IMG/VR virus record: IMGVR_UViG_3300028384_000422
Location: 19,858 to 83,857 of that record
Source: a virus
Strand: one strand, 5' to 3'
DNA length: 64,000 nt
The position numbers and the translations under genes are program-made. Of the stretch, positions 1 to 23,100 are shown piece after piece. Position 1 is the stretch's first letter. Every line of letters starts with the position of its first letter. The notes under the pieces are model-generated. The model had not been told where the DNA came from. It did no database searches and worked only from the letters and a program-made list of their open reading frames with translations.

Positions 1-3000
1 AATTAAGAAATCGACAATAGTATTCTTTTCTGAGAACTCATACAAATATCCAGCAATACCAACATTAATATTATTCGTATTGAATGGAATAACATCTTGT
101 ACTACCAAGATACCAGTTTGAGCACTCCAAGAAACTACTGTACCTCTCACACCACTAATTGCACCAGTAACAACTTCATTCGTGCTGTAATTTTGACCGT
201 TTCCTGTTGTAAGATCAACAGTAATACTTAAGGTTGCGACGTGTTGAACACCGTCACTCAATCCGCCTGCTTCAATAATAGTTGCATATCTAAATGGGAT
301 CGAAGCATCCTTGATACTGTCACCAACTTGGAACAGAGTAGTGTTTTGACCACCTTGAGTCTCTTCAATACCATACAGGGAACTAAAGATACCACCATCA
401 AGACTAATTTGGTTTTCATAGTCTGTTCCTGTATTTACCAAGTCTGCAATACCATCTCCTAAGAATGTTCCAGGATTATTAGGATCTTCATTTTCATCAT
501 CGTCTTGGAATTTTCTATCTTGTAAAGTAGAGATAGGAACAGTTAATAATGTAATGGTTGAACCAGTTTCGGTTTCGATAATATGTGGTTGATATGAACT
601 ATTAGCACTAGCAGCAACACCAGCGTCAAACTGTACAATAGCATCTTCAGTAGAAGGAATACCCGCATCGATAAAAGCAAGTTCATCAACTTCAAAAGTG
701 ACTAATAGTTCTCTTGAATTTGGATTCCAATCGTATACCTTAGCAACTTTGTTGTTTGCATTGTCAACACGACGAACAACTCGGTCACCAACGTTATACA
801 GGTAAGTAGATACTCCTTCAGGTGTATTCTGTCCTGTATCTAGAACAACTCTCTGATCATAGTTAAAGTTTACACCTCTAGTCAGACCAGTAAATCTACC
901 TTCACTCTTAGCAGTATAAGAAATAGTTTCTGCATCAACAATAATTTCACCAGAACCAGGATATGCATCAGTAGAATCTACATAAATCTCACTATCTGTA
1001 GAACTAAGTGTTTTAACAAGTCCAGTAAGATAGATCGCAGATGCATTAAGTGCCTGACGTGCTCTGGTTTTACGTTTAAGTTGAACTAACTTAGTAAAGA
1101 TAATATTGGGTGGAGAAGTATATCCTTTTCCAGGATCGATAATATTAATTCCAGTGATTTGTCCTTGGAAAATAGTTGCTTCTGCTTTTGCACCAAGACC
1201 ACCGCCACCACTAATAAGAATAAAGGGAGGTTCTTGATAGAACTCACCAGCATCTACGATATTGATATTAGTAACTTTGCCTAAGGTATCGATTTCTGCA
1301 GCACCTTGAGCACCTTGTCCACCACCACCTTCAAAGATAAGTGTCGGAGGTGTGGCGTAGTCTCTACCTGGGTTCAGCAAAGATAAACCAGTAACTGTTT
1401 GAACAGTGGGGGTTCCTGTAGCACCACTTCCCTGCCCACCAAGAATTTTTGCTTTTGCTGAACCAAAGAAGTTATCACCAGTTTTAGTCATCTTAATATA
1501 AGAGACTTGACCTGGATTATCAGTACTTAAAACAACTTCACCTGCAGCTTCGGTTGGGAATTGAGAAACTAAATCAGGGACTGTATCACCCTCAAATAGA
1601 GGAATACCATAATATTCAGGACCAATAGCATATGGATATACTGGATTGCCACTACCATCTTCAGTCATAAAATATGCATAAGTTCCGTCTGGATAATCGG
1701 GAGTAACAGCATATCTACCGTTGTACTGATCAAGAGTTCCTACGGAAGAATCGTAAATAAAATCAGTAATTAAATCACCTAACAAATATCCTTCGCAAAC
1801 ACCTCTAACACCTGCATCCTCTTCATGATATGCATAAACATATATCAGACGATCAGCATCAACAGGAACTTGGAATCTAATTTCTCGTGTTGTTGCTGCA
1901 GAGAATCCAGAAACATATGCAGCATAACTCACGGCAGAACCATCCAAATGATAGGTTACTGAATGAGATGCACCATAAACATAAGAAGTATCACCAACTA
2001 AAGCGCCATGCCAACCATCTTCTGTTGTAGAGAGTAATAAAATCTGAGAAAATAATCCGTCTACGTTACTAGAATCATCTTGATTAAAGACATACGTTTT
2101 TCCTCTCAGGAATTCAATGAATGGTAGTGTTTGACCATCAAATAAGAATTTATCATTTGCAAAAGTAACAGCATAAGTTACTGTTCCTGCAGTAACAACT
2201 TCTGGTCTGGCACCAGATAATTCTGCAGTTGTTTTCAATCTATAAGAACTAGATTCTCTACGAACAGTTCCACTATCCGTCTGACCCCAAGGACCATAGA
2301 TGGGATATCCATCAAAAGACATACCCAAAATTTTAGAGTGCCCATTTATATGTCGAGACTTATCGATTGTATTAAGATCGTTAGAATTGGGTTGATAATA
2401 ATTTTTTGTATAGTAATTATTAGCATGATCCTCTTCTTCTACAGTAGGATCGAGAACCATATATCCTTCATCGCCAGTATAACCCGACATATAGCGATGA
2501 TTTTTACAATAGTAATAGATACGATTTGATTCATCCGAATTCATAATGAATAACGGTTGATATTCGTTTTCGTAATCAGTTGACCAGTTTTCAGTAACTC
2601 CTGTGCTGTTATAGTACAGAGTTCCTCCATTCAACAGACCATCCTGAGTTGTGCTGAACTGCATTGGGTGTCCAACACCATGTTGGTTAGATGAATCAGA
2701 TTGATTCCATCTAATTAAGTAATTTCTTTGAACTCTAATATTTTCTGGTGCAAAATAATATCTACCTGGGATAAAATCACCAAACTCTTCTGCATCAGAT
2801 CCAAAATCAATATAAAAAATACCGTTAGGGAAAGTAATAGGATCATCATCAATACGAAATTGGAATCCATTAGCACCCAACAGTAAATCGTCTTCAGCAA
2901 AAGGACCGTTAACAATATTTCTAATATAAACCTTTGTTGGATTATTCTGAGAGTCTCTAACAATCTTAGCGATAAACCCATAGGCATTACCACCAACTTC

Positions 3001-3870
3001 ATCGACTCTTCTACCAACTTCAAGATTACCTAAACTCTGATCTAATGAGTTGGGAGTAATATTAACTAAAATATTGTCAAATTCTACTTTGATATTCCAG
3101 GTGAAAATTTCAATATCACCCCAATCAAAAACACTATTACCTAATTTAAATTCATCAATTAACTTATTTGTCTGGTAATAATATGTTTGTGAATCATTGA
3201 CAGCACCATAGACATTCATATTCTTCAGATAAGAATATTTTGGTGCGTTGATTGGGAAATTGACCTGTGCATTACCATCAAGACCCCAATCAGGAGTATG
3301 AAGTAAAACACCATTTGACATGATGCCAGTTACTTTATTGCGCTGCTCATCTCTAGTTCCTGGATTAGGAACATCTTTACCGCCTCGGTAAATAAAGGTT
3401 TGGTCAAATGTTCTATCTAAGATAGTAGTAGATCCACCAGGTTCTCTCTCTGCCATAACAAACAGAGATGGTTTGGGATGATTATCAGATACAATACGAA
3501 GTCTATCTGTATCGGCATTAAATGATCCAGTAGTTGGAGAATTTGGATGAGTTTGCCAGATTCTATTAATATTAAAAGAATTTACTACATTAGGTGTTTC
3601 CTGTTCAGGAATAATCTTAAGTCTTAGAGGGTCATAACCTCTACCTCTTGATAAAACACGAACGTGAACAATTCTACCCGATTCTTCATCGATAATTGGA
3701 TATAACAAAGCTTCGGTTGTTGGAGTTCCACAACCTGTAATTGTCAAACGAGGAGGATCTGCTGGATCATATGAGGATCCGCCATTTATAACTCTTACCG
3801 CTCTTACACCAAATACTTCGTCAAAAATTGGTTCAATTACGGCACCAGTACCAGGAACATTTCTTGCCAT
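1..3870 (-). CDS. Large virion structural protein with cupredoxin-like and YHYH-type segments (3' end outside window)
   Basis: Open on the minus strand from ATG at 3870 (MARNVPGTGAVIEP) to the left edge, at least 1290 codons with no stop, so the C-terminus is missing. The sequence shows a cupredoxin-like segment: H401 in GVGHPMQF, then IYYYCKNHRYMSG with C455, H458 and M461. That is the C-x2-H-x2-M ligand loop of amicyanin-type blue copper proteins. About 55 residues later comes a YHYH-family-like motif, GMSFDGYPIYGPWG. Further on are two Gly-rich repeats of the type PPxLIFEGGGGQGAQGAA, and a Thr/Val-rich beta region. Together with the adjacent 412-aa and giant genes it forms the distal part of a baseplate/tail-fibre operon. 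Role inferred: a peripheral tail or fibre protein. Copper binding is predicted from ligand pattern only. Confidence 0.85.
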   Translation of the reverse strand, partial: MARNVPGTGAVIEPIFDEVFGVRAVRVINGGSSYDPADPPRLTITGCGTPTTEALLYPIIDEESGRIVHVRVLSRGRGYDPLRLKIIPEQETPNVVNSFNINRIWQTHPNSPTTGSFNADTDRLRIVSDNHPKPSLFVMAEREPGGSTTILDRTFDQTFIYRGGKDVPNPGTRDEQRNKVTGIMSNGVLLHTPDWGLDGNAQVNFPINAPKYSYLKNMNVYGAVNDSQTYYYQTNKLIDEFKLGNSVFDWGDIEIFTWNIKVEFDNILVNITPNSLDQSLGNLEVGRRVDEVGGNAYGFIAKIVRDSQNNPTKVYIRNIVNGPFAEDDLLLGANGFQFRIDDDPITFPNGIFYIDFGSDAEEFGDFIPGRYYFAPENIRVQRNYLIRWNQSDSSNQHGVGHPMQFSTTQDGLLNGGTLYYNSTGVTENWSTDYENEYQPLFIMNSDESNRIYYYCKNHRYMSGYTGDEGYMVLDPTVEEEDHANNYYTKNYYQPNSNDLNTIDKSRHINGHSKILGMSFDGYPIYGPWGQTDSGTVRRESSSYRLKTTAELSGARPEVVTAGTVTYAVTFANDKFLFDGQTLPFIEFLRGKTYVFNQDDSSNVDGLFSQILLLSTTEDGWHGALVGDTSYVYGASHSVTYHLDGSAVSYAAYVSGFSAATTREIRFQVPVDADRLIYVYAYHEEDAGVRGVCEGYLLGDLITDFIYDSSVGTLDQYNGRYAVTPDYPDGTYAYFMTEDGSGNPVYPYAIGPEYYGIPLFEGDTVPDLVSQFPTEAAGEVVLSTDNPGQVSYIKMTKTGDNFFGSAKAKILGGQGSGATGTPTVQTVTGLSLLNPGRDYATPPTLIFEGGGGQGAQGAAEIDTLGKVTNINIVDAGEFYQEPPFILISGGGGLGAKAEATIFQGQITGINIIDPGKGYTSPPNIIFTKLVQLKRKTRARQALNASAIYLTGLVKTLSSTDSEIYVDSTDAYPGSGEIIVDAETISYTAKSEGRFTGLTRGVNFNYDQRVVLDTGQNTPEGVSTYLYNVGDRVVRRVDNANNKVAKVYDWNPNSRELLVTFEVDELAFIDAGIPSTEDAIVQFDAGVAASANSSYQPHIIETETGSTITLLTVPISTLQDRKFQDDDENEDPNNPGTFLGDGIADLVNTGTDYENQISLDGGIFSSLYGIEETQGGQNTTLFQVGDSIKDASIPFRYATIIEAGGLSDGVQHVATLSITVDLTTGNGQNYSTNEVVTGAISGVRGTVVSWSAQTGILVVQDVIPFNTNNINVGIAGYLYEFSEKNTIVDFLI

Positions 3871-3882
3871 TTAGTGTCAACC

Positions 3883-5121
3883 TTATGCTACGTTAATTGT
3901 GCCTTGCATTTGCGCGTGGAGGGTACACTGATAATACAGCGTTGAGGGAGCATCGAGAGGAACTGTCCAATAAAGAATTGTAGAACCACTACCCGTTTGA
4001 CCTGTCGTATATGCAGTTCCACTCAATCCCTGAGTAGATTGAATTCTAAACGGGTGACCACCACCTTCAACACTATTATCAAATGCGTAAGTGAATCCTC
4101 TATAAACATACAGCGTTGGGTCACGATTGTCACCAGCAGGGAGTCCAGGTCCATTGATCAAATAGTCACTACTAGCATTTTCTACAGGAACGTTCAGTTC
4201 ATACCAAAGCATTGGACTACCACCTGGGGATCTAACCCAATCCGTGCCATTCCAATAAATGTTATCGCCCTGTGTCAGACCAGTAGTATCAGTATCAGTT
4301 AAGTTGGCAAATGTAGTTGTAAGAGTTCCACTAAAATCAACAGTTACAGTATCACCAGAAACTGTTGTTGTAATATTCGTTCCACCCGCAATAGTCAGTG
4401 TATCGGTTTGACTATTAGCAGTTGTATTTCCAGTATCACCTGCAATTGTTTGGAATACGTTAATAGAGGACACACCAGCAACGTCATCACCAGGAACCCA
4501 AGTAGATCCATTCCACTTAAGTACTTGGTTTAATGTAGGAACATTGGTAGTAGTGTCAACATCATTCAAAAGATTGATACTAGAATATTGTGTCAACAAT
4601 GTTGCTCTAGTATCACCAACACCACCCGCAGTAATATTGATATTTACATAGGGATTATCATCACCATCAACAGTGAAGTAATACCCAGGATAAGATGCTG
4701 CAGCTGGTGCTGCGGCAAGACTAGCATATTCATTCTTATATTTTACCGTCGTAGGTAAATCAATACCTTCTCCTGTAGTTCCACCAAACGTAGAAGTAAT
4801 ACCACCTGCCGCCAATGTAATATCACCAGTTCCATTTGCTGCCACAGCAATATTTCCGTTAGACGATGAAATAATTGAATTATTATTTACATCTAACGCC
4901 GCAGTCAGGTTTGTGAAATCGGAAGGTAGAAAACTAGTTCCGTTATATCTCAATACCTGACCAACAGCAGGGTTAGCAACACTTAATTGAGTGTTAGAAC
5001 CATTGCCGATGGCAGTATAAAGTTCAGTGAAATTATCATTGATCTTATCGCCGCCAGCACGGAGGGTGTCCCCCGTGTTGTCATTAGCGGCAGTACCAAG
5101 ATTAAGTGCCTGTTTAGCCAT
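3883..5121 (-). CDS. Virion structural protein with C-terminal cupredoxin-like domain
   Basis: 412 aa. The N-terminus (MAKQALNLGTAANDNTGDTL, then INDNFTELYTAIG) is a common opening of cyanophage fibre and structural proteins. The middle is Thr/Gly/Asn-rich beta sequence with repeated LRYNGTSFLPSD and LKWNGSTWVPGDD units, as in tail fibres. The last 60 residues look like a cupredoxin: H356 in GGGHPFRIQS, then LYYQCTLHAQMQG with C399, H402 and M405. The spacing (C-x2-H-x2-M) equals the amicyanin copper loop, and all four expected ligands are present. A perfect T4-type late promoter lies just upstream. Inferred to be a late tail/fibre component, possibly binding a metal at its tip. Function in infection is unknown. 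Confidence 0.85.
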   Translation of the reverse strand: MAKQALNLGTAANDNTGDTLRAGGDKINDNFTELYTAIGNGSNTQLSVANPAVGQVLRYNGTSFLPSDFTNLTAALDVNNNSIISSSNGNIAVAANGTGDITLAAGGITSTFGGTTGEGIDLPTTVKYKNEYASLAAAPAAASYPGYYFTVDGDDNPYVNINITAGGVGDTRATLLTQYSSINLLNDVDTTTNVPTLNQVLKWNGSTWVPGDDVAGVSSINVFQTIAGDTGNTTANSQTDTLTIAGGTNITTTVSGDTVTVDFSGTLTTTFANLTDTDTTGLTQGDNIYWNGTDWVRSPGGSPMLWYELNVPVENASSDYLINGPGLPAGDNRDPTLYVYRGFTYAFDNSVEGGGHPFRIQSTQGLSGTAYTTGQTGSGSTILYWTVPLDAPSTLYYQCTLHAQMQGTINVA

Positions 5122-5141
5122 TACTCACTAAGTTTTTTAGT

Positions 5142-5149
5142 TATTTATA
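5142..5149 (-). promoter_or_regulatory. T4-type late promoter TATAAATA
   Basis: Exact TATAAATA on the minus strand, 21-28 bp upstream of the ATG at 5121. It overlaps the stop codon of the giant gene, which would let the 412-aa gene be transcribed separately by late, gp55-type sigma-directed RNA polymerase. Confidence 0.75.
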
Positions 5150-8100
5150 GGATCTCTGGATCAACTGCTTCTTCTCCGTAATCCGCAAGATTTGGAGCGG
5201 TCCAATCGTCGGGGACAGTTGTTTCAACATCAATGCCTGGGTTCTGATATCCAGATCCAGCATTACTCATCTCAACACCCGAAACACCAACCAGCGCCTT
5301 AATATTACCATCGAATCCAGAGATAGAGTCGATTCTCACTGTAGGTCTGGAAGTATATCCAGAACCACCACCAGTAACCTGAACATCATCAATAAATCCA
5401 GAAGTGATTTGAGCCTGTGCGAGTGCATCTTGACCAAAGACAGATCCCAGATAATCGAAAGTGATCAAAGAGTTAGAAGACTCAATAACAGCAACTTCAC
5501 GATCATCGGTTTCACCCTGAATTCTGATGAAATCACCAGGTTCAACGGGAGGAACAACTTCAGCAGCATCAACGTCTGCTTCAGAACCAACGTAAGAGAA
5601 GGCAACAAATGTAGATCCGAATCTAGGAATTTCGGAGAAGATGATTCTAGAACCAACAATCTCAAAACCAATTCCAGGTTCCTGGATAACACCATTGAGA
5701 GAAACAATGATGTTATTTTCAGGTCTAATAACACTAGATTGTACACCGTCCGTAAGTGTAAGTGAGTAGAATACTTCGTTACGCTTAAGGTTAAAGGACT
5801 GACGTAAAGAGTCAAACTCAAACGAAATATCGTCAAGTTGTCTCAGTTTACCAACATAGAATCCAGTGAACGATGCACCAATATCGGGTGCTTCAGTGAA
5901 CTGAATTTGATTGGAGAATGCTGTATATGCATTGGTAGCGCCAGGAGGTTGCAAAATACCATTGATGAATACCAACAGATGACCAGCAGGATCTGGTAGA
6001 TAAGATGTTCCGTTTTCAATAGTAAGATCGAAGTTTGTCTGTGTGCCATCGAAACCTTTGGAAGAACGCTTAACGCGAGCCTTAAGATCTTCTTTAGAAG
6101 TAATAACTGACTTATAATTATCGGCAGACTTGATACCATCTCTAGTAGTAAATGTTCCTGCGATATCACTTAGATACAGACGTTTCTGTGTGCCAACCGT
6201 CTTAACGTCTTGAATAAGAGCGGCAGCGGCACCTGCGGTTACGACTCTGGTTGTGATAGAAGCATAACCAACGGGGAAGTTACCAGCAAGACCATAATCA
6301 CCAACAACATCACCATTTGTTAATTCACCCTGGAAATCGACCGCGTAAATGTAGTTATTGTCAAGGTCAACTTCGGTAATAATTGCATATACAGAAGAAA
6401 CTTGATTACCACTAACAACCTTATACAGTCTGTTACCAACGGTGAATGTATTCAGATTACTAATAATACTAATACCGAATCTCACATAACCAGTAGATGC
6501 AATTCTCTGACCAATTTGAGCATTGAAACCATCATATTTGATAACATCGATATATTGTCTGGAACTCTCTGGATATACAACAGAGTTCTTCTCGAAAGTT
6601 CCGAGTAATGTCTCTGTGTCAACTTTAAGAGTACCACCAGTATTAGAAAGAACTGCTGCCTGATTCTTAATGAATCCAGTGGGTTGTGCAGTCTCGCCAC
6701 TAGTGTAACCTTTAAACGGAATATCATTAGAGAACTCGCCTTTAAGGTCGATAATATGAATTCTATTTTCAATTGCACTAATCTGAGCAGATGTGGAGTT
6801 TTCAGCACCAACGATAATATCGGTAATTGCCCAAGGACCAGCGGTAACACGAACATCAAGATACTTATAGTTTTCATCTTCATGGAAACCATATACAACA
6901 CCAGTAACAGATGGAGCACCTTGCTTAGCAACAGTCTCATTCATCGTAAACGGTCCATCAGTGATGTCACCGTCGATACGGAAACGCTTGTAGATTTGAA
7001 CAATCTTACCGCTATTTTCGTTTAATGTTTCTACTTCTGCATATGCATTACTAGACTGACCATAGACAAAATCGGTGGTTTTAAGACCTCCTCCAAGACC
7101 AATGACTTTATCTCTTTCTCCAAATGTTTTGGTCGGCAGAGAAATAGCGTTCTGAATATCGAGAGAAGTGAAGTAAGTTCCAGTCTTGATTTGCTGTCTA
7201 ATAATATTGGTCGCATAACGAGCCAAAGCAGTAATAGAATCTGTAGTGTAATCAGATGCTGCAGTAGAACTGTAGAAACTATAGAAACCTGCATTTGTGG
7301 ACGGCGATGTAAGAGTTCCTGCGAGAGCCTGTGCAATGAATCCATCGAGCAGATCCAGAGCAAAGTTCTTGATATTAAACTCGTTATCAGAGTAGAAGAT
7401 CTTACCACTGGTTGCAGTGTAAGGATCCAAAGCAAACTTGGTGAGTTTTGCACCCCAAAGGTAAATACCTGTGCTGCCATTACCAGTCCAGGACTGAGCA
7501 CCAGAAGCACTATTAGCAATAATATTAGTTCTAAGAACAGAGAAACCAAAGGAGAACGTTGCAGTAATAAAGAGTCGATACCACCCATCACCAAGAGGAA
7601 CCGCACCATAAGCATCACCTGTAATACCACCCTGAGGAATAAAGAGTGATCCAATAGCACCAGTACTGAGATTCAGATCAAAGAAGATATTTTGTTCTGC
7701 AGTAGTTCCATCATCCAAGATAAGACCGAATCTGACAGAAGCAGAACCTGCTGCTTTAACAAAGATGGATGATGTGAATGTTTGTGTTTCAGAAACACCT
7801 ACAGCACCTGTATCAAAAGATTCATTTGTGGTGTCGAAAGTCAGTGTGCTTGAGTCAAATGTCTCAAATGCAGTCAGGTTATAATCTCTGAAAGTATCAT
7901 GAATACCACCATTATTATTTGCAGCGAAAAACTTCTCTGCAGTCAATGTTCCATCAGGAGCAGAGATCGAATTATCAGTGATCAGCAGAGAGTCAACACC
8001 ACCATTACTATTAACTTGCCAATTGACAGCAAGTGCTTCAGGGTTAGTAAACAGATTAGTACCAGAAACTTGACCACTGATGTTAGAAACCAATGTCTTA

Positions 8101-11100
8101 GCATGATCTAATGTCTGAACATTAGTAGGTTCAGAATACCAATCATAACCACTACCAACAGTAGCAACTGTTGCGGTCGCACTAGAAGTTCTACCAGTTA
8201 AGGTATCGGATGCAGACCATGCGGTTCCTGTAAATGCGCCAACAATCAACAGATTAGTTTCTTCATTCCACTCAAGAACGGTAGCATAACCGCCGCCACT
8301 AGAACGAATGACTTCACCAAGTTGGAAATTGCCAGTCAGAGAAGTGAATGTAATCTTATATGCAGTTTCCTTAACTGTAGTGTCAGTTGTAACAACATCA
8401 TGAACCATATCAGTGATAATTCTATCAATGAAAGAGTTGTATACCCATGCTCCAGAACCAAACTGAGAGTTGACCTGATTCTGAATCTCCTCCTTATAAT
8501 AATTGAGGTTATAAAGAATATTCTTAGATGCACTGCGACTAATGTCACCTCCAGGTGCAAGAATACCAATAATAATATCAATAAGATCTTCAAATCTATA
8601 TACAACTTTTTCAATATCAATTACAGTTTCGGTATCGCGATATGCAACATCATCACTGTAAATTGCCGCATAATCAGGAGAAGTAAATCCAGAGTTAAAA
8701 TCATATGCTCTGTTTCTGATTGCAAAAGGACCAATATCCTTCAATTTTTGAAGTGAATAAACAAAAGCGAGAATTTCATCTTCGATATCCTTAATTTGAA
8801 GAGATGCAGTCAGATATTTTTCAATTTCTGCAATGGTGCTATTAGTACCACCTGTCTGCAAGTCAGAAATAATACCAAGAAGAATTGCCTCTATATTTGC
8901 CTGTCTTACCAATTCATCAGCATATGTAAATGCGTTATAAGTAACACCATTCAAATCATATTGGAATTCAGTTCTAGTATAACCAGTTACTTCTTCAGCA
9001 AGATACTGTCTGTTGAAATACAAACGATCTGCAGCAACATGGAAATCATTACCTGTAGGAGCGATAACATCGTTGATAATAGTTACCAAATTATCAATTG
9101 CTGTCTTAACGTTTGCACATCCACCAGCATCCTGAGTAATACCCCAATCACCAACAATGATTGCATCGGTATTATCATAAGTCAAATCACCTGTAATCGC
9201 TTGTTTTGCATAGAATGCAAGACGCTCATGTGCATAAACAGATTGGAATACCTGTAAGCGAATATATAGAAGAATATCATTAGTACCAAGATAGAAGTTT
9301 GCTGCCTGAACAGTCTTCTCATTACCACCATTTTGAATATCATCTGCAATTCCATCCAAGATCTGACCCAAGTCAGTCTTACAACGCACAGTACCATCAG
9401 TGCTACCACCACCTTGGTTACGAGGCATATCCTGTGCAAGATCAGGATAACGCTGCAACATATCAAATGCTGCTTTATCAACGATAGCAGATCTGTTTGC
9501 TCTAATCAGGTTAGCAGCATCTCTAAAGCGATATTGTGCATCGGTGTCAATTCTATTACTATAGAATACATCAGTATTTGCATCATGATAAGAAATATCG
9601 AAAGGAGTCTCTCTAAATGCATTGACTGTTCCACCAAGGAACTTGTAAGCGGGAAGTTTCTTAGTAACAGATCCAAGATAATCAACAGCAGGATCTTGAC
9701 TTGCATTGTCTAATGTATCGCTGACAATAGACATCAAGTTGTCAACTGTATTAATAACATCTGTGCAATCATTGAGATTATATTCAGACTTAGTTATTGC
9801 ACCGCTACTTGCGGATACGAAAGTATGTGCATATTGATCATTCTGACCAGATTTACCAACATTCACAGTGAATGTATTGGTATCAGCAGCAGTAATAACA
9901 AGAACTTGTTTTGCAGCAGGATCAGACTTTCTGGGGTATGATTTCTGTGCAGTATTTCCATCTTCAGTGCAAGTGAATACAATCGACTCAGTTGCAATGA
10001 ATACGGAATCACCAGCAACCGTAATACCATTAGTGGTTGCACTTACGAAGCTATGAGTGTAGTTACCACCAGCAACAACACCATTTGTAGTTGCAGACGC
10101 AAAGGTGTGTGCTGTAGTATCCCCAGAAGTTCCAAGATCAACGGTGATTGTATTGTCTTTCTTAACAATTCCATTTGCTGTTGCACTTACAAATGTATGA
10201 ACATATTGATCAGCAGCAGAAGAAGGACCAACGTTGACAGTAAACGTATTAGTAGATACTGCAGTCGGACGTAACCATCTACCAGAGAAAGGATCGGTAG
10301 AACGAGGATAAGTCTTATTCTCAAAGTTACCATCCTTAGTGCAGGTGAATGTTAAAGAATTATCTTCAATTCTAATCTTATCACTAGTGGTGAATCCATG
10401 GTTTGCAACGGTAACTACAAGTTGACCCGATGCAGGATCATATGTTGCTGCTGTTGCAGTACTTGTTGCACCATTCTGAGTAATTTCATATGAAGTTGCT
10501 GCTGCAGTAGGAGCAGATCCGTTAGATCCAGATCCTCTGCTGAAAGTAAGTGCATTCTGAGCAATTTGAACATTCTGACCAACTTCCAGATTATTCTCAG
10601 GAAGAGTAATTACTGCAATACCTGTAGAAGGATTATATGTTGCAGTAGTCGGAGTGTAATTAACTGTAGGAGACTTACCAACATTAACTTCAAATGTATT
10701 CGTAGCAACGTTAGAAACTTCCAACCAACCCTGAGAAGCAGGATCATTTGCACGAGGATAAGTCTTCTGAGCAGTATTGCCGTCCATGGTGCAAGTGAAG
10801 GTCAGAGAGTTATCTGCCAACTTGATTCTGTCACCATTAGAAAGACCGTGACTGTTAGAAGTGATTTGAAGAACACCTGTAGTTGCAGTATATGTTGCAC
10901 CAGTTGCAGTCTTATTGCTAGGAGCAACTAAACCATGACCATTAGAGGTAAGAACCATGAGACCCGTTGCGGGATCATATGTTGCATCAGAGGGCACAAA
11001 TGTGGTTGCACTTGCGTAAGAAGACTCGGTAATAGAAGTATCAAACTTCTGAGTGAGACCATGATCACCCTGTACTTCCCAAGGTGTGTTGTTAATTACA

Positions 11101-14100
11101 TATTCAACAATCTCTTGAGTCTTTTCTAGAGTATAGAGAGTTTCTGCAATTTCACTTTCAACATGACTCAATGTGATTGGGTTGACTGTTCTATTAACAT
11201 ACAGTGCAGAAGCATCCCAGATTTTATCATTACTACCATTTCTCAAGTCATTTACAAGAGCATCGAGAATATCACGAACATCATCCTCACAATTGATTTC
11301 TCCACCAGGAACAGTGAAATAAGGATAGCGATTCTTCATGATATAAACTGCTTCATTCGCAATAAAGTCCTTATTGAGAATAATGTTATCAGCAGCATTG
11401 ATATAACGATGAGAGTTGCCAGTAAATCCAGTAACTCCAATACCTGTGGAGGACCTAGATGTTGCTAAGATTGCATCATTATTAAAGTACTCATCTGCAG
11501 TGAAGGACTCACCACCAGACCAGTCTTCAACATAAGTTTGACCTTCTTCTCCATCAAAGTGAAGAAGAAGTTTTGTAGTTGCATCACCTTGGAACATTCC
11601 TGTAGGAGCAGTGAATGCTGCGGTATAACGGTTAGTTGTAGAAACACGAAGTTCGTCAATGTAACCAGCAAATTCGTTTGCGCCTGCATAGTCACCACCG
11701 ATTCTGAGAGGTTTAGCGGCATAGTTATTAGCATCAATACCAACACCTCTCTCAACACCATCAATATACAGTTTGGTGCCTCCAGAAGCGGTAGAAGAGC
11801 GAACAACTGCAATATGATACCAAACATTGTTATTAAGCGTGGTAAGACCAGAAGTTGCAATATCTACATTATTTGAATTAAAACGAACTTGACCAGCTTC
11901 AAGATACAAACGACCAGCAACATCAGATGCCTGAGTGCGGAAGTCGAGAAGAGTCTTAGTTCCACTCAAAGAAGCAGAAAGGGGCTTCACCCAAAGTTCA
12001 ATTGTATACGCAGCAGTGCCGAATGCAAATTCACTCGAAGATGGAGTGCTAATGTATTCGTCGATAGGAACAGCACCAACGTTGACTGTAATCGTAGTAG
12101 AAGTTACTGCACTGATAGCAAGTGCTGTACCAGATGCAGGATCAGTAGAACGAGGATACGACTTATTGGAAGTATCTCCATCTTGATCGCATGTGAATGT
12201 AACAGCGTTATCTGCGATTGTGACAGTGTTGGAAGTGGTAAGAGAGTGATTACCAATCTCAAGGGTCATTGCACCCGTTGCAGGGTTATATGACGTGCCT
12301 GTAGCAGCAGTGTATGTGCCTGTAGCACCACCGCCAGCAACAATACCATCGGCAACACCACTTACAAATGTATGATCGGAAAGACCAGCAGAGAGTGCTA
12401 AACAGGAAGATCCAAACTTCTCATTGTAAGTATTAATATAAGCACCTGCTTCCCATGTCCACTGGAAGTAATCTTGACCATTACGTTGTGAGCGACCAAT
12501 CTTACCAACATAAACGGTGTTAATAGCAGAGTTATAACCGATAACTTCTGCTTTTGTATCACGGGTTCTAATAATTTGACCAGCAGCAAAGAAACCATCA
12601 CCAATCTTATCAGTGAATGTTAGTTTTCTAACAACGCCGTTCTCTATTTGGAAATCACCAACATTGTTACCGTAATCAATTTTATAGTTACGAACAATTT
12701 CATCAGCATCAAAATCTCCAGATGCATTATCATAAGGAATTACATAATTATTAATCTGTTCATTTGCAGGGAAGTTAGAGTTAAATGCGGTTGCATTATC
12801 ACCATACTGAACAACATTGACTTGAGAAGAGGAAATATCGTCGAGGATTACGTTAGGATAAGTTTGAGATGCAATTCTGTTGAACAGCAGACCGAAGAAA
12901 GAAGAACCTTCAGAAATATTGACCTGACCAATAAACTCTTGAGTTGTAGGATCTTGATATGTGGCAGTAGCAGTAACTCTTGCAACAACACCCGACTGAG
13001 CACCGATAATGACATCATTAAGTTGAATATCAAACAATCCAGGTGTAGACTGATATGTACCAGCAGTCTTACTTAAAGTAAGTGCATTAGTAACAGAAAT
13101 AGCAGTTCCATATACAGGAGCATCTTCTTGCTGAGGTGCTGCAGCGGTTCCATTTTGACCTCTAGTTACTCCAATAGTAGTAGACTCACTACCATCAGTA
13201 ACAGAGTTAACTAAGAAGATTTCGGAACCGACTTGATAGTTATCGCCAACAACGAATGTTCCTGCAGCAACAGGCGAATCTGTAGCAGCAGATACATCAA
13301 TTACTTCAATATTAGTGGTTGCAGCACCGATAGTGTAGCGCAGTTTTGCAACAGGTGTTTCTTGACCTCTTTCCAGGTTAATCTGTTCAACAATAGCAGT
13401 ATCGCCATCGAAGTTGGTAATTTTCTCACCGAAAACAAACAGACCCAGATTTGTAACTGCTGTGTTAGTTGCTAAGTTAGCATTAAATCCAGTAGTGCTA
13501 CCAGTGATCAATTCACCGATAATAAACGTGCCAGACTCCATGAAACCGTTAACTGTGTCACCAACAACACTAGTAACAATCAATCGTGCAGCAGAACTAG
13601 TACCAACTAATGTATTACCAGCTAACGGGAAAATACCACTCTGATTAGTAAATGTCAGAGAAATAGTATTGATTTGATCAATGGTAATATTTACATACTT
13701 AACACTTGCAGGAGGTGAAGGAGGTTCTTGGAAAACAATAGAATCATTTTGAATTTCAAACGATGTTCCAGGGTTCTGAACGATACCGTTAAGAACAATC
13801 ATTAACTGATTAGCGTTTGCAACAACGTTGTCTCCATCAACAGTTAGAGGGAACGCAATGCGCTCACCATCAAACAGATTAGAAATGTCATCCAATCTTT
13901 GAACAACAGAGGTTAAGATGTTCTCAGAAGAGGTCAGTCTCTTTTGACGGAACAGAACTTCTGTATTATTGAATTCGGAATATACAGGTTCAACCAGAGC
14001 AAAGTTCTGAATATTAGGAACAATTGCAGCTTGTGTAAGTTCAACCGACTTAGTTAACTCGAAGAAAGTCTCTTTATTAGGAACGAATCCATACTCATTT

Positions 14101-17100
14101 AAGTTCAGTTCACCAAAGACCTTGAAGGATGCTGGGTGAACGTTCTTGATAAGAATTTCTTTCCACTCACCAATCGAAACAGCAGACTTAACAGCATAGG
14201 AGAAGTCCTGATAATAGTAAGAGTCTTGAATCTTCTGAATAATTTCAGACGGTTTACCAACGTCATCGATAAACTGACCCGTAGTTTCTGTAATAGAACC
14301 AATTTCAAGAACACCTTTAGCAATCTTCAGATCACTAATAATACCAGAAGATTTAGAAATAACACCTGTGATTCTTTGATTTGCAGAGAAGTCGCCAGTA
14401 TAGTCAACGATCTTGAGAATTCTAGGACCAACTTGCCAACCACTATTTGTAGAAACATAACCAGTTGCTGTTGCAACATCCAGAGAATCACCTTGATATA
14501 CAAGTTCACCCTCAAGGAATGTAGAAGTTCCAACATTTGCCGTTGCAGAACCACCGAAAGATTCAGTCAAGATAGACTGACGACCATTACCTGCATTACT
14601 GAATGTAAGTGCGTCACCCAGTTCTGCGTTAGCAGGAGTGATAGCAAGTTTTAACTGATCATCTTCCAAAGAGTTTGCTGTACCAGCAATTGCATAATAA
14701 GTGGTAGATCCGTTTAAACGACCAGTTGCGCCAGATGACAGAGGGAATTCTGCACCATCACCAGTATCAGTTACCGAAACCGTAACTTCAGCACCATTTG
14801 TAATACCATGAGGGAAGGAGAATTGAAGCAGACCTAAGTCAAGGTTGATAACATAGTTGAAAGAAGATTTCAGACTTACAGTAGGTGTAGAAGAATAACC
14901 AGCACCAGGATCTTTGATCAAAATTTGATCCAAACGACCATTCTTAATTGTTGCCTCAGCAACAGCACCAGAACCGCCACCACCAGAGATAATAACAGCA
15001 GGTGCCTGAGAATAACCCGAACCAGGATCATTGACAGTAATACTAGTAAGAATGCTAGTAGATGTTAACTGTGCGTTGATTGGGAAAGTAATTTCAGGAC
15101 GCAACGTATAGTCATGAGGATAATCATAACCAAAGTTATTGTTCTTAAGTTTCTTGATCTTACCGACCTTATCACCCTTAGTGAAAACAGATGCTCCAGA
15201 ACCGAAGGAGGGAATAACAACCTCAACTTCAGCACCAGAACCAGTCAAACCAGCACCAAGAATACCATCAACAGAATCAATATCAATAGTTGCAGTGGTA
15301 TAACCTTTACCAGGAGAGGTAACCGTAACTGCTTGAATCTGTCCAGGGATTGCATCACCTTCAGAGTCAGTGCCATCAGCAACAGTAATTTCTACTAATC
15401 CACCTTCACCATCACCTGCAATAGGAACACCTCGATATTGACCAACTGCATATTCAGTTCCAGGTTCATTAATTTGAACTCTCTCAATTTGTCTTGTAGA
15501 TTGAATATCAGAAACAATAGGTAATCTCTGATAGAATCCACCAGCGTTAACAACTCTAATGTCACTGATAGAACCAACTGCTTTCTTAGAACTAGTGCTA
15601 TAAGACGCTTGACTGATATCTGCAGGACCTTCAGGCTCATTCAGCAGAGGGAATTTAATAATGTCAGCACCACGAGTAATTGTTGCACCAGCAACACCAC
15701 TGAGTTGGAATGTTCCGACATATGGAGAATCTACAACGTCAAGATAACTACCAGGAATGACAGGAGAATCATCACCCGTTCTAGAAGGATCAAAGTAGTA
15801 CGAGATATTGGTTACAATGTTTCTATCAACCTTGAGTTTAACAGTAGGAGTAGGTTGACCTTCACCAGTAAGACCAGGAGTTCCAACACGTTCAATAGAG
15901 TTGAATGAATATTCCAACTTATACAGGTTATCCTTAGAGAAGGATAAGTTGCCACCTTCAAGAGAGGAATGACTAAGGTCAAACAGATATTGATGACCAT
16001 AATACATCTTCAAGGTAGGAGACTTCGAGAAGATACTAACACCCGATGCTGTTGTAGCAGGATCAGAAACTGCTGCAGCAGTTAACTTGTAAACAAATTC
16101 CAGAGGACTGATTACTTGATTGACTGCGAACGCACCATCATATTCATCATATGTAACTCCACCAACATCTTGAGACGGGTTACCATCAACAAAGATAACA
16201 TCACCAGCATCAAGATAATGATTAGTATCGGTAATTACATAAACTTCATCGCCATTCTCACGAGCAGTGACTTGAAGAATCTTAGTAAGATTTGTAATTA
16301 CAGTAACTTTGGTAACACCAGTCAGACCTGTAATTTGAGCGGTGCTATATGCAGAATTGAATGAAATATTTCCAGAAGCAATCTGAACAACAGATCCAAC
16401 AATATACGGGGAAGATCCGCTAACTTCGTCAATTCTAATGGAATAATCATCATCAGAATATGGTTTGAATACTGCATATTCATCAAGATTATTAGTTCCA
16501 CCTATATCAGTAGGAGCGTTAAAGTCTGCCAGATCAAGATCAAAGGTTCCAGGAGTAGTATTAATTACTTGTGCAAAAGAGTAACTATCAATCTGATTAA
16601 TATCATTAGGAATTACACCAGTAATACCATAAGTAGACTGTTCATTAAACTGCTCTGTAGAGAGACGACCCGTGTTCAGATCGTTAGACCAAGTGTTATT
16701 ATTAACCGCAACAAAAACATGATTGGTTGTAGTATCAACCTTAGTAATATATCCGCTGTTAATAAATGCTCCTGATGTATTCCTCAGTACTAACTTAGAA
16801 CCAACGGTAAATCTAAATGACTGATTAATAGTCAGTTTTTGAATATTATCAATCTTAAGAGTATTTGTTACTTTGAAGAAATATCTATCTTTAACAACTG
16901 CAGTTACCTGCAACTTCTGAGAACCAGGAGAAGGAACAGTTGCAGTTCTGGAACTCCATATATCCTGAGTATAAGTCAATGTCTCAGAATCTTGAGTCAT
17001 TGTAGTATCCGCATCATCAAAGTCAAGTGATTGTAGACCAGCATCACCTAAAGCATACTCGGAAGTAGAAATAGTAAGAGTGGATCCTGTAACAGGAGTT

Positions 17101-20100
17101 ACTGCAGTTCTTGTAAATGCAATACCAGTATTTGTCTGAGTTGCCTTATCACCAAGTCTTACAGCATCAGCATCCTTGTCAACTTTAAGTCCAAAACCAG
17201 CGTAATCAATGTAATCGTAACGACCCAGATAATCAGGGAACCAAGTAAGATCGGTGTATGTGTAGGAAAGTCCAATTGCACCATTAGTTGGAAGAACCGA
17301 GATATCACTAGGTGTAGTAGGAGTAACGGCACGATTTCTCAGACGGAAGTTATCAGTAATATACTGACCTTGCTCATTTACACGGAATGTGCCAGTAGTG
17401 CCATCTTTACCAGAGATTTGACCAACTAAGAAATCTTTGTTTGCAAAATTAGTGTCGGAAAGAGTTGCGGTAATTACTGAAATGCCATTGACATATACAG
17501 TGAATGTATTACCATCTCTCTTAAGACCAATAAACTGCCAAGTGTCATCAGCAAACATCGTAGTTTGCGTAGATTGTACAGCACTTCCTAAGTTGATGGT
17601 TGTAGTGTTATTAGTAACAACTAAGGAGAGTTTACCATCAGCAACGTTGTAATACAACCAAAGACCACCTGTAGCATCGGTGGCATCACCAATAGAGAAT
17701 AAGGTATGTTGAGTGATACCAGAAACAGCAGTGAAATTGGTATCTTTAAAGATCTGCATTTCGGCAGTCCAGTTACCATTCAACTTAGTTCCTAATTGAG
17801 CGCCAGTAACTTTTAGGTTGCCTCTTGTCCAAGTGCTTTGACCAGTCTGATAACCATAGATCTTTGCATATCCACCATCGTAATCCAAAGAACCGCTAGT
17901 AGATTCGGTAGTCAGTGTGTAATGTCCAGTGGTATCAGTAGTTGTAGATCCCGTATTAAAGGGGAAAATAAACTCGTTACGGTTCCAAGAGATCTGACCG
18001 AAGACATGAACGTCTGCAGAGTTGTCTACATCTAAAGAGTGTGCGGTAATACCTTCAATATTTGCTTCGTCGAAGTTATTGGTAGTATGATTTTTAACAA
18101 TACCATTATAACCAATCTTAACTGTATCTACAGTCTTCAACCCAGTTGTATTATCAGTACGATTAAATGCAACGTTCAGATCACCGAAAATGTCGATTTC
18201 TGAATTGCCAACCATATCAACTTCTCTACCAGGAGCAACATAACGATAGTTCCAGATAAGAGCACCGTCAGTATTAATCTTACCAACCCAGAAACTATCT
18301 TTGTTGGTATCATCGGACTTAAGACGACAATTACCTAAAACATAAATTTCATTAAATTCGTCAATACACAGACTAGTATTCAAAGTTGAATATAAGGTGT
18401 TTGTATACTTCTTAATCCAAACACTGGTAATTGCAGATGCTCCGATGGACGCTTTACCAACTGCCACATCGACATCGCCAGCAACGTTAGTGTCAGCAAC
18501 TTCTAGTGAATAATAGATGTCTTCTCCATTGACAATGATGTCAGTGATCTTTTCAGATTTATTTGACGATGCAAACTTTCTCTTAACTGAGAAGTTACCG
18601 CTAGTATCAATAGATGCGATGAATGCATCTTCAGGACTTACCGAGTTTGTATTAGTAAAACCACCAATTAAGAAACGAGTATCAGAATACTTAACAAGAG
18701 ATGTAACAACATCACCACGGGTGCTACCAGAAATACCAGCATAACCTTTCTGAAAAGTCAGTGTTGCACTTAAACCATTATCTGCTTGAGTATACTTAGC
18801 AAGAATAATGTCTGGGTTATAATCAGCAAGAATGCTGCTATTTGGTCTATTTTGTCCAACTACCCAAACCGCGTTACCATCAACAACCAGTTTTGAAAAT
18901 TCTGCTTCCTGTTGTCCAGTACCAAGTTCTAATGTTTTCTGCCATTCTTTAACACCTGTAGCAGAGAGTTTAGCAACAAATGCAACTACATTATCACTAG
19001 CATCTTTTGTCTTGCCACAAATGAATACCTCTTTATTGTCATTGACAAAGGTATCGTTGACCTTTACATAGTCATTGTTATTGATAAAGGAGACATAATA
19101 ATCTGCCTTTTTGAATACCTGTGGGTGAGAAAGAATGACTCTAGGATTACTTGTATATCCAGAACCAGAATTAAGGATATTGACAGTATCGATAGATCCA
19201 ACAGAAGATACGACTGCCTGTAGTCTAGCATCAGCACCACTGTCACTATCAATAACAATTGTGGGAGGAATATCTTCATTATAACCAGAACCAGTCTGAT
19301 TAATAATAATCTCTTCGATACCCGTATATTGACGAACAATAAACTGCTTGTTAGTGTTGTCCATAACAGGACTGTAGTCAACAAATACAGTATCACCAAC
19401 AACCAGGTTATGAGGTTCTTCAGTTGTTAAGACACCATAATTTTGTCCACTAATACTTTCAAAGGTATAAGCTTCTACAGTTTCTCCCTTAATTCTAGAA
19501 ACACGAGCGGAAACACCAGATCCACCAGTATTAGTATTATCAAAGATAAGTCTATCATCGACCTGATAGGAAAGTCCTGGGTTTTCAATTGTAAATCCAG
19601 TTACAGAAGCATCCTCAAACTTAGTAGTCGTTTCAACTTCAATATCAACCTTAGAATCCAGTTTTACCTTCGGGAAATAATCATAAAGTTGCAAAGGAGA
19701 TTCTTCAAAGACCTGATCGGGATCATCAAGTTCTGCCTGTTCAATAACACCACTTCTATCTTCGTCTTCTACTTCAAACAGAAGAATATCACCGTTTTCT
19801 AATGTCAATGCATTTGTAGATGCATTAGGAGCACGCTCAACATCGATGTCAACATTCTCATATGGATCGCGATAACGAACAACACCAGTTGGAATATTCT
19901 GTTGAACTGCATCGGTGCTCAAGTTCCACTTATCAACAACGGAGTTGAAGCTAGGACCAAGAACATATGGGAATACAGGATTACCTGCTTCTGCAGCATC
20001 AATAGTGACAAAATAGCAATATCTACCTTCGGGGAAATCAGGTGTTTTGCAGAAACGACCGTTATATTGGTCTAGATCACCTGAGTTAAAAACATATTGA

Positions 20101-23100
20101 TAGTCTTCAACGAAATTACCTGCCGCTTCTTCAGAAAGTAAGGGACCAGCAGTTCTTACGGGATTTGGATTAGTATCAACGTTGTATACCAATTCGGTCT
20201 TCAGACTATAAGAAGTACGCATTCTGGTAATCGAAGATCCTTGATCCGTAGGATCAGTATATGCATAAGGACCGTAAATCGGGTTACCATCAAACGCCCA
20301 ACCAATAATAGGAGAGTGAACAAGTTGATCTTCTTGCTCAAGAATACTACCAGCAGTGTCTTGGAAAAGATTATCACCGAGAATATATCTCAGTCTTTGT
20401 GGGTTGGAGATGTGTGCATATTCTCCACCATACTGATTATTAAATCCTTCAGCAACAAATCCTTTTGCACTATCAATTGTGGAAGTTTCTTGTAAGTTAT
20501 ATGTCCACTTGAATACTTGTGCTGAGAATTGAGCACCTTGACCAATAGAATTCAAGTTGATAATAGTTTGTCCTTGAGTATATCCAATACCCTTGTTAAC
20601 AATAGTGATACCAGTAACTCTACCAGCATTTTCACCATCAGTATCAATAGTCGCTCTTGCTACAGCACCGAAACCATCACCTTGAATTTGAATCTCTGGT
20701 GCAGTAGTGTATCCAGATCCAGCAGAAATAATAGCAATAGAAATAATTCTACCATTATTAACAATTGGTTGAGCAACTGCACCAGAACCAGAACTCAGTG
20801 TAACAGTAGGAGTTGAAGTATAAGAAACACCACCATTAACGATATTGACAGATTTGATAGGACCTCTAACAAATGCAGTACCAGTAGCACCTGTTCCGCC
20901 TCCACCAACAATAGTAATAGAAGGTTGAGATGTATATCCAGTTCCACCCTCATTGATAAGAATTCTAGAAACTACACCCTTAGTGATAATTGCCGTTGCA
21001 GACGCACCAGAACCGCCTCCACCAACGATAGAGACGAGAGGGGAGGATGTATACCCAGAACCACCAGAATCAACTGTAATCTCGCTAATAGCACCATCAA
21101 CAACTACATCTGCAGTAGCACCAGTTCCTCCACCACCATCAATGGTGATAACAGGGGGATTTGCTGCATCATATCCCTCACCTTTGTTGGGGATATCAAT
21201 TGAAGTAACTGCACCAAAAGTTTTTGTGATAGTAGACTTATAGGACCATACTGAGACACCATTCACCCATGTTCCAATAGGACCAGAAGCAATTGTATTC
21301 TTAGTCGAAATAGTTACAGGTGATGTGGGGAATCTGTTCAGTTTACGCTGATTACCAGGTAAAAGAGCAGATCCAGGGAAAGGACCAATATTATAGTTCG
21401 GAATACCCGTAGATGCAACGTAAACGTAGTTGTCATTAAAGAAAGTATTCTGAATGTTAGTGGTATAAGGTCCAATAGCATTAAGAACAATCTGACTATC
21501 AGATTTACCCTTGTTCAAGTCAATAGAAACAAGAATATTACCTTGAGGAACTGTAGTTGCAGGTTGAGGTAATTGATATTGGAAAACCGTAGAACTATCT
21601 CTGGAAGTTACCAAAAACGTTCCGTTATAGATGATTGGGTTTGCACCATAGACCGTAACTTGGTCTCCAACCAAAAGACCGTGAGGATTAGAGCAAGTAA
21701 CAGTTGCAGACTGGTTATTTACACCACCAAAAGTGATACCAGATACTTCAACCAGTTTTTTAACGTTATACAACCAAGTTGTTAACTGAGAAGACGTTCC
21801 TGTGCCACCCAGTTTAGAAACTGACAGTTTATCACCAGGAAGATAATAAGAACCTGTGTCAGTAAGAGTGGTTTGTTGAGCATCAACAATACCAACAATA
21901 TTCATTACAACTTCTTGAGCAGTGCCCTTGTTTAAGAAGATTGTAAAGTTGGAAGAAACCTCTGTAGCAGAATCCCAGTCTTCTACAGTTCCATTTACAG
22001 AACGGGTACACTCAATGAACTGGTTTAGTGACTTTTCTTTGTATTGAATGACTTCTCTGCCAAGTCCACTACCAATTACAAATTCTCCGTTTCTTTCTGG
22101 CCAACCAATCGTAGAGTCAACGGTGATAATACTATCAGTAGTGTTGAGAGGTTCTGCGAGACGAGTTTTATAAGGAACAGTAAAAGTTCCTGTAATAGTT
22201 TCTTCAGAAAGAACAAGTTCAAAGATTTCTACATCAGAAGTTTTAATCGAAATATAGTTTTCAACCAAAGCACTTGCTGCTTGGACATTAGAGTCTGCAA
22301 TATCCGCTTCTTGAGTAATCAGAGCGTCTCTGATGTCTACAGGATTACCACTAACCAAAGTGGCACGAAGAATTGTGTCAACAGACCAAGTTGCAGCAGA
22401 GGGTTTGATGATTTGGTCTTTCGGATACGAAATAGAGACCGTTTCACCATAAAGTAATTTGAAAAGATATGCAATACTAAACGAAGTTCCTTTTGCTGAA
22501 TAAAAATCTTTAATTGACTTGATTGCGTTACGAACGTCAATCTTTTTATAGTCTAATTGAGGAACATCGGGTAAAAACTGCTCAGTATACTTGTCAAGCA
22601 GTCTTTTAATGAATAAAGCATCCAAACACTTGACTTCTGCGTCTACTGCAGCAGATGCCGCTAACGTATTATTAGAAAACTTGGCATTACCATCTTCGGT
22701 ATAAGAGGTTATGCCACTTGCAGATCTGGCACAACCATTAAACGCCGCTTTATCATATTCTGTTCCTGATTTTTGAACTTCAAAACCAGTTACCTCATTA
22801 AGACCGATTTCAACTGATGCCTGAGCAGAAGGAGGGTCCTGAATGACAATCTTTGGGGGTTGTGTGACGCTGTAACCAGTACCAAACTCAGTTACGTTAA
22901 TATCAGTAATCTGACCATTAAAGATCGATGCTACTGCCTTAGCGCCAGTTCCTCCAGAGTAGTTACCTTGAGCATCAGTGCGAGTGTCAACGATATAAAC
23001 CGAAGGGATCTCATCATATCCACTACCACCATTAAGAAGTTCGATACCGATAACACGACCATTACCATCGACTCTAGTTTCAAGAACTTGAGCACCAACT

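Follow-up and report, generated by a model that had tools for sequence, protein, structure and literature searches.

In bacteriophage T4, gp9 acts as the hinge for the long tail fibres, and it is not known to carry a copper-type cupredoxin at its end. T4-like cyanophages rank among the most abundant viruses of the ocean, and their large baseplate proteins are mostly without known function. In published accounts, the YHYH domain of phage tail proteins is described as a likely metal-dependent hydrolase (Iyer et al., PMC7824862), YHYH domains appear among the putative receptor-binding proteins of pelagimyophages (PMC7029224), and an iron analogue on phage tail fibres has been proposed (PMC11705849). 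The words copper and cupredoxin are absent from the main text of PMC7824862. With regard to cyanophage virions, 41 proteins were detected in those of S-SM1 (Sullivan et al. 2010, PMC3037559), a phage that belongs to the set analysed here, and passages on other cyanophage virions mention neither YHYH domains nor cupredoxins (PMC10665884 and PMC10966104). In the open-licence literature, we found no description of cupredoxins in phage virions, tail fibres or cyanophages.

The window analysed here, a stretch of 64,000 nucleotides of viral DNA, derives from a T4-like marine cyanophage. Over bases 1-5200 it shares 95% identity with Synechococcus phage Syn19, and at least 80% of these bases are covered in 216 of the 297 phage records having a match. 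Three virion genes of the window concern us:

1..3870, minus strand: ORF of the baseplate wedge protein, first 1290 of 1398 residues, stop beyond the window; phrog_708
3883..5121, minus strand: gp9, the baseplate wedge tail-fibre connector; phrog_677, with PF07880 at the N-terminus
19995..20591, minus strand: YHYH domain in a giant 6483-residue virion ORF, a protein without a cupredoxin motif

The wedge ORF (3870..1, minus strand) stays open for 1290 residues within the window and reaches its full length of 1398 residues beyond it, and the profile of phrog_708, “baseplate wedge subunit”, matches residues 1-1290 with 2229 bits. The gp9 gene, which matches phrog_677, “baseplate wedge tail fiber protein connector”, lies upstream of the wedge gene, and the S-RIM8 annotation of these neighbours is gp7, gp9 and gp8. 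The gp9/10 N-terminal domain PF07880 is present in gp9 and gives no match in the wedge protein at E values up to 1. The giant ORF (5145-24596, minus strand) is a single frame of 6483 residues with 18 cysteines; its YHYH domain lies around residue 1433, and the C-x2-4-H-x2-4-M motif is absent from it. The original prediction held that a pairing of cupredoxin and YHYH is repeated in adjacent genes; this does not hold, since gp9 has only the cupredoxin and the giant ORF only the YHYH domain. The “copper-linked fibre system” that it envisaged would consist of a baseplate wedge protein and a fibre connector, as the two proteins are classed.

In the wedge protein, a putative metal site and the segment inserted with it are placed as follows:

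2449..2823, minus strand: cup-1, a cupredoxin-like domain at about residues 350-474, with the ligand set intact, between the YHYH-motif region and RHxxGHSK
2836..3138, minus strand: beta-rich segment, residues 245-345, found only in the cup-1 lineage and inserted together with cup-1
2668..2670, minus strand: ligand His401, within GVGHPMQF
2506..2508, minus strand: ligand Cys455, within YYYCKNHRYMSG
2497..2499, minus strand: ligand His458, within YYYCKNHRYMSG
2488..2490, minus strand: axial ligand Met461, within YYYCKNHRYMSG, lost in S-RIM4-type phages

H401, C455, H458 and M461 constitute a type-1-copper ligand set of the form C-x2-H-x2-M, a spacing that, here and in gp9, we take to be that of amicyanin. 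The residue numbers given earlier for H401 in GVGHPMQF and for C455, H458 and M461 in YYYCKNHRYMSG are exactly right, and DGYPIYGP occupies residues 520-527. All four ligands are invariant in an alignment of 62 distinct relatives (62/62). The original prediction had made its case depend on the conservation of the Cys, His and Met positions, and this check did not refute it: in a larger set of 80 distinct sequences, all with C-x2-H somewhere ahead of DGxPxYG, the His, Cys and His are each kept in 80/80 and the Met in 78/80, while just 21 of the 146 alignment columns are invariant. The Met exceptions are S-RIM4 and a near relative, in which a shortened loop lacks the Met and the His, Cys and His are kept. 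In the subset found by motif-free patterns, the His, Cys and His are present in 39/39 and the Met in 38/39, and none of the complete wedge proteins with a first-position insert lacks C-x2-H. A chance motif is thus ruled out by the conservation in distinct relatives and in the motif-independent set.

Could the conserved residues have nothing to do with copper? Cupredoxins might serve as compact beta-sandwich modules for adhesion or docking, with conserved residues that bind zinc or aid folding and no copper chemistry. The location of the cupredoxins in baseplate and fibre proteins would suit such a role, which we nevertheless regard as rather doubtful, because the Cys and both His (80/80) and the Met (78/80) are retained in otherwise Cys-poor proteins; the in-window part of the wedge ORF has 3 cysteines per 1290 residues. 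Moreover, the site combines a single Cys with a Met and the amicyanin spacing, and this combination is copper-like rather than zinc-like.

The second site is in the neighbouring gene:

3886..4212, minus strand: gp9 C-terminal cupredoxin, residues 304-412, with ligands H356, C399, H402 and M405

All four of these ligands are invariant in 51/51 distinct sequences, and the 412 residues of gp9 include one Cys and two His, which are all three ligands. The last 140 residues were predicted with a mean pLDDT of 89.6. The top match of this model is a three-domain nitrite reductase (6tfo; Z 9.6, 2.7 Å over 96 residues), and rusticyanin is matched both in the same comparison (2cal; Z 9.4, 2.5 Å over 96 residues) and by Foldseek (E 4e-6). 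In the PDB, the gp9 profile also matches amicyanin, though weakly. The model also matches “Beta-sandwich protein” entries of Marseillevirus and Pithovirus in BFVD, with E values of about 1e-6 to 1e-5. The C-terminus of gp9 is accordingly predicted, by modelling, to have a cupredoxin fold. The cupredoxin-like site anticipated in the adjacent gene is borne out to this extent, but the YHYH domain expected beside it is missing from gp9. It is through relatives of these domains that the connection with known copper proteins is strongest. The window gp9 pairs in BLAST with a cupredoxin nested in a YHYH domain of a relative (L214; E 9e-12), which passes the Pfam Copper-bind family PF00127 (29.4 against 21.2 bits) and matches a solved plastocyanin (E 7.5e-4). 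The fibre cupredoxin of P-SSM2 also passes PF00127, with 23.3 bits.

The wedge protein carries a YHYH domain (PF14240) at 59.9 bits, against a gathering cut-off of 25. Its parts are spread over the ORF:

3139..3393, minus strand: first part of the YHYH-family domain, residues 160-244, aligned with canonical YHYH proteins; degenerate motif TYYYQT
2332..2355, minus strand: RHxxGHSK motif of the YHYH family, residues 506-513
2290..2313, minus strand: DGYPIYGP motif of the YHYH family, residues 520-527
1657..1788, minus strand: last part of the YHYH domain, residues 695-738, TPDYPDGTYAYF, the Pfam stretch

The domain is split by two inserted cupredoxins, cup-1 and cup-2. The proposal that a cupredoxin and a YHYH-family domain share one polypeptide is supported. 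The “YHYH-type motif” of the original prediction was right about the family, to which DGYPIYGP belongs, but this is another motif of that family; the name-giving Y-H-Y-H is gone from the window wedge protein, with YYYQ in its place. The counterpart in ACG-2014d is YFFQ, and YHYH is found in five free-standing cyanophage homologues.

The second inserted domain, a third cupredoxin that the original prediction had overlooked, lies between the conserved halves of the YHYH domain:

1786..2199, minus strand: cup-2, cupredoxin fold, residues 558-695; ligands lost here and intact in sister phages

In the predicted model of wedge residues 140-775 (mean pLDDT 87.5), model residues 419-556, corresponding to protein residues 558-695, account for the best solved matches, which are auracyanin A, with Z 8.7 and 2.8 Å over 101 residues, and rusticyanin (Z 8.4). 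On the strength of this model, cup-2 is predicted to have a cupredoxin fold. In the window lineage, the His, Cys, His and Met of cup-2 are all lost. The degenerate and intact versions are clearly one domain (99.9% in profile comparison). The persistence of the cup-2 fold after the loss of its ligands means that the fold alone has a use, which favours adhesion or docking modules devoid of copper chemistry.

How are the three cupredoxins related to each other? In profile comparisons, cup-1 matches the intact cup-2 of sister phages at 92.3% (E 5.6e-7) with the ligands in register, intact cup-2 matches gp9 at 97.3%, and cup-1 matches gp9 at 81%. For each of the three pairs, the real score was reached by 0 of 60 column shuffles. 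When the four ligand columns are masked, the score of cup-1 against cup-2 (27.7) is still over that of the best shuffle (16.7), and the score of cup-1 against gp9 (19.8) falls under it (25.8). The cup-1/gp9 similarity therefore rests partly on the ligands. The window cup-1 also pairs in BLAST with a third-position cupredoxin of another virus (L207; E 6e-8). Against the PDB, the cup-1 profile finds nothing but antibody chains (E 0.19 or worse), the intact cup-2 profile has zero matches, and the profile of the whole domain region has no meaningful match; cup-1 is likewise absent from the solved-structure fold matches of the wedge model (residues 140-775). Judging from its sequence, we infer that cup-1 has a cupredoxin fold.

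The two sites are distributed among lineages in a complementary manner. The window lineage has an intact cup-1 and has lost the cup-2 site, while ACG-2014d, S-RIM14 and S-SSM4 lack cup-1 and carry an intact cup-2. Not one of 106 distinct wedge proteins, a count that includes fragments, carries two intact sites (0/106). With the exception of the S-RIM4 type and S-WAM1, each protein that covers the region has precisely one site. The wedge proteins of S-WAM1 and P-TIM40 have neither the cup-1 nor the cup-2 domain. In a tree of the shared C-terminal core (82 distinct proteins), whose root is weak as S-WAM1 is the single outgroup, the proteins with the cup-1 site form one clade (73/73, support 0.86, two S-RIM4-type members included) and those with the inner site another (8/8, support 0.997). 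As the two site states correspond to two clades, the swap in the wedge family amounts to a single event that was passed on to many sequences.

An independent group of marine viruses (L198 type, proteins of about 2270 residues) shows the reverse pattern. In its 13 distinct members, the first-position cupredoxin is degenerate in 11 and was not found in the other 2, and there are two inner cupredoxins, the first intact in 13/13 and the second intact in 8 and lost in 5. The degenerate cupredoxin of this type is 42% identical to the virion cupredoxin of S-TIM66. The metal ligands are thus kept while the domain that bears them changes, which is best explained by selection acting on at least one metal site per protein and not on a given domain. 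Modules valued for their fold alone leave unexplained why one site survives as the other decays. The relocation of the working site between nested domains provides a natural experiment, in which metal-site selection can be set against fold selection.

We surveyed 141 distinct viral YHYH domains, classed by anchors. The first site is intact and the inner insert siteless in 77; 7 further domains are of the same intact-first-site kind and were mis-scored by the pattern, the three that we checked having HQ for HP after the kept ligand His. The S-RIM4 type accounts for 3 domains, 11 have only the inner site, 3 have a cupredoxin at the third position, and one (L167) has an inner H-C-H site without the Met and an intact YHYH. 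The other 39 are without a cupredoxin site, 3 of them being scored as holding some insert. Phage YHYH domains hence host cupredoxins at three different positions. A rule by which a nested cupredoxin excludes the YHYH motif had been drawn from YHYH being present in 0/17 distinct viral domains with a nested motif, with a motif pattern that misses bacterial variants such as YHHH; we dropped it on two counterexamples, L167 and L207, the latter having the YHYH motif and a cupredoxin at a position other than the inner one. At the inner position of the YHYH domain of L197, there is an insert of about 110 residues without a cupredoxin motif, and the inner loop therefore seems to tolerate different domains.

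The recurrence of cupredoxins at three positions in phage YHYH domains hints at a functional link, and since YHYH is a predicted metal-dependent hydrolase of the tail according to Iyer et al. (PMC7824862), the pair might form a redox or hydrolytic enzyme acting on the host envelope. We consider this the most improbable of the readings discussed here. The motif histidines are gone from the wedge protein, and with YYYQ in place of YHYH its predicted active site is incomplete.

A bacterial origin of the cupredoxin-YHYH fusion was unsupported, as the motif occurs at the inner position in 0/63 distinct bacterial YHYH domains, in a survey in which both anchors were found in 64 of 80 loci. The pattern occurs elsewhere in 21 rows of that survey, and in 20 of these it is the YHYH family's own C-x-K-G-H-P-type stretch or similar. 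The 21st (L320, NZVD01000020.1, labelled as a Rhodopirellula MAG) encodes a 1387-residue wedge protein of cyanophage type, and probably represents phage DNA placed in a bacterial bin.

By tblastn, at E values up to 0.01, the gp9 cupredoxin is matched in 338 phage records, and at least one gp9-type cupredoxin is present in 15/15 phage records searched by profile. Related domains are present in the tail fibre of a Pelagibacter phage, in structural proteins of P-SSM2 and P-HM2, and in S-TIM66. In the Actinomycetia phage DSL-LC01 (L164:3752-5122), a freshwater non-cyanophage, an intact cupredoxin is nested at the same place in the YHYH domain. In ACG-2014d (L083:5293-7056), a separate protein of about 590 residues with a complete YHYH lies between the giant ORF and gp9, and the same is seen in L084, L085 and L165. 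After its YHYH domain, the L083 protein has a stretch with a GTSNGG motif, which we take to resemble an alpha/beta hydrolase.

What, then, might these domains do in the virion? The reading that we hold to be reasonably probable is that the wedge protein has a working type-1-copper-type site, cup-1, inserted in a YHYH-derived domain together with the extinct site of the nested cup-2, that the C-terminus of gp9 bears a further working site, and that the whole probably serves as a rigid, metal-filled docking domain. Each lineage would keep the metal site in one cupredoxin copy, while the other copy decays or is absent. The metal-filled rigid domain would sit at the baseplate periphery, the place of fibre attachment and of contact with the host. 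Copper on Cys-His-His(-Met) would lock the ligand loop, and may thereby help to hold or present a surface for fibre docking or adsorption. We infer that the metal is copper because the ligand set points that way, and its binding in the virion and its role are put forward on the same footing; the location at the baseplate periphery and in the fibre connector points to attachment or triggering. These data suggest the presence of metal, probably copper, at the tail tip of these abundant viruses.

The domains might instead act as a switch. In marine cyanophages, and in several other phages of aquatic habitats, the rim of the baseplate might carry type-1 copper arrays that respond to redox state or metal occupancy: contact with the host surface or periplasm would alter the state of the copper, the fibre and wedge contacts would be released or stiffened, and infection would be triggered, the site being mobile between nested cupredoxins with at least one kept. 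We judge this unlikely. Alternatively, metal borne on the tail could be bait, recognised by the metal-uptake receptors of the host. The copper in cupredoxins is buried, which makes it poor bait, and no receptor is known here. Many marine phages have such sites on their tail and fibre proteins, and an iron counterpart has been proposed for marine phage tail fibres (PMC11705849); we still find this copper version of the iron Trojan-horse idea very improbable. The rigid, metal-locked docking domain is ranked first, ahead of the switch and the bait. A conserved copper-type site in the fibre connector and the wedge would turn the virion tail into an assembly of metalloproteins, and the discussion of iron Trojan horses would extend to copper.

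Compared with T4, the window gp9 shares the PF07880 N-terminus of gp9/gp10, and the wedge protein differs from the gp10 tail pin in lacking PF07880. With the YHYH domain (PF14240) of jumbo-phage tail proteins (PMC7824862), the wedge protein shares DGxPIYGP, RHxxGHSK and TPxYPxGTYAYF; unlike that domain, it is without the name-giving YHYH and is split by two cupredoxins. The plastocyanin of cyanophages (petE, an auxiliary metabolic gene) is likewise a phage-borne blue copper protein, and a PF00127 protein is present in 8 of the 9 phage records searched. Unlike the virion domains, it is a protein of its own, soluble and signal-like at its N-terminus, and its kinship with the virion cupredoxins has a profile probability below 1%, no better than shuffles. 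That the phage recently captured its own plastocyanin gene is therefore unsupported.

As for the type-1 blue copper proteins, the window domains score below the Pfam cut-offs for these families, no Pfam or NCBIfam copper family (PF00127 and PF13473 included) reaching its cut-off in the window proteins, and their copper is putative. They have the same His...Cys-x2-His-x2-Met order as amicyanin, rusticyanin, auracyanin A and plastocyanin (PF00127), and the C-terminus of gp9 and cup-2 have the predicted cupredoxin fold in common with them. Those proteins are soluble electron carriers, whereas the phage domains are built into proteins of the baseplate.
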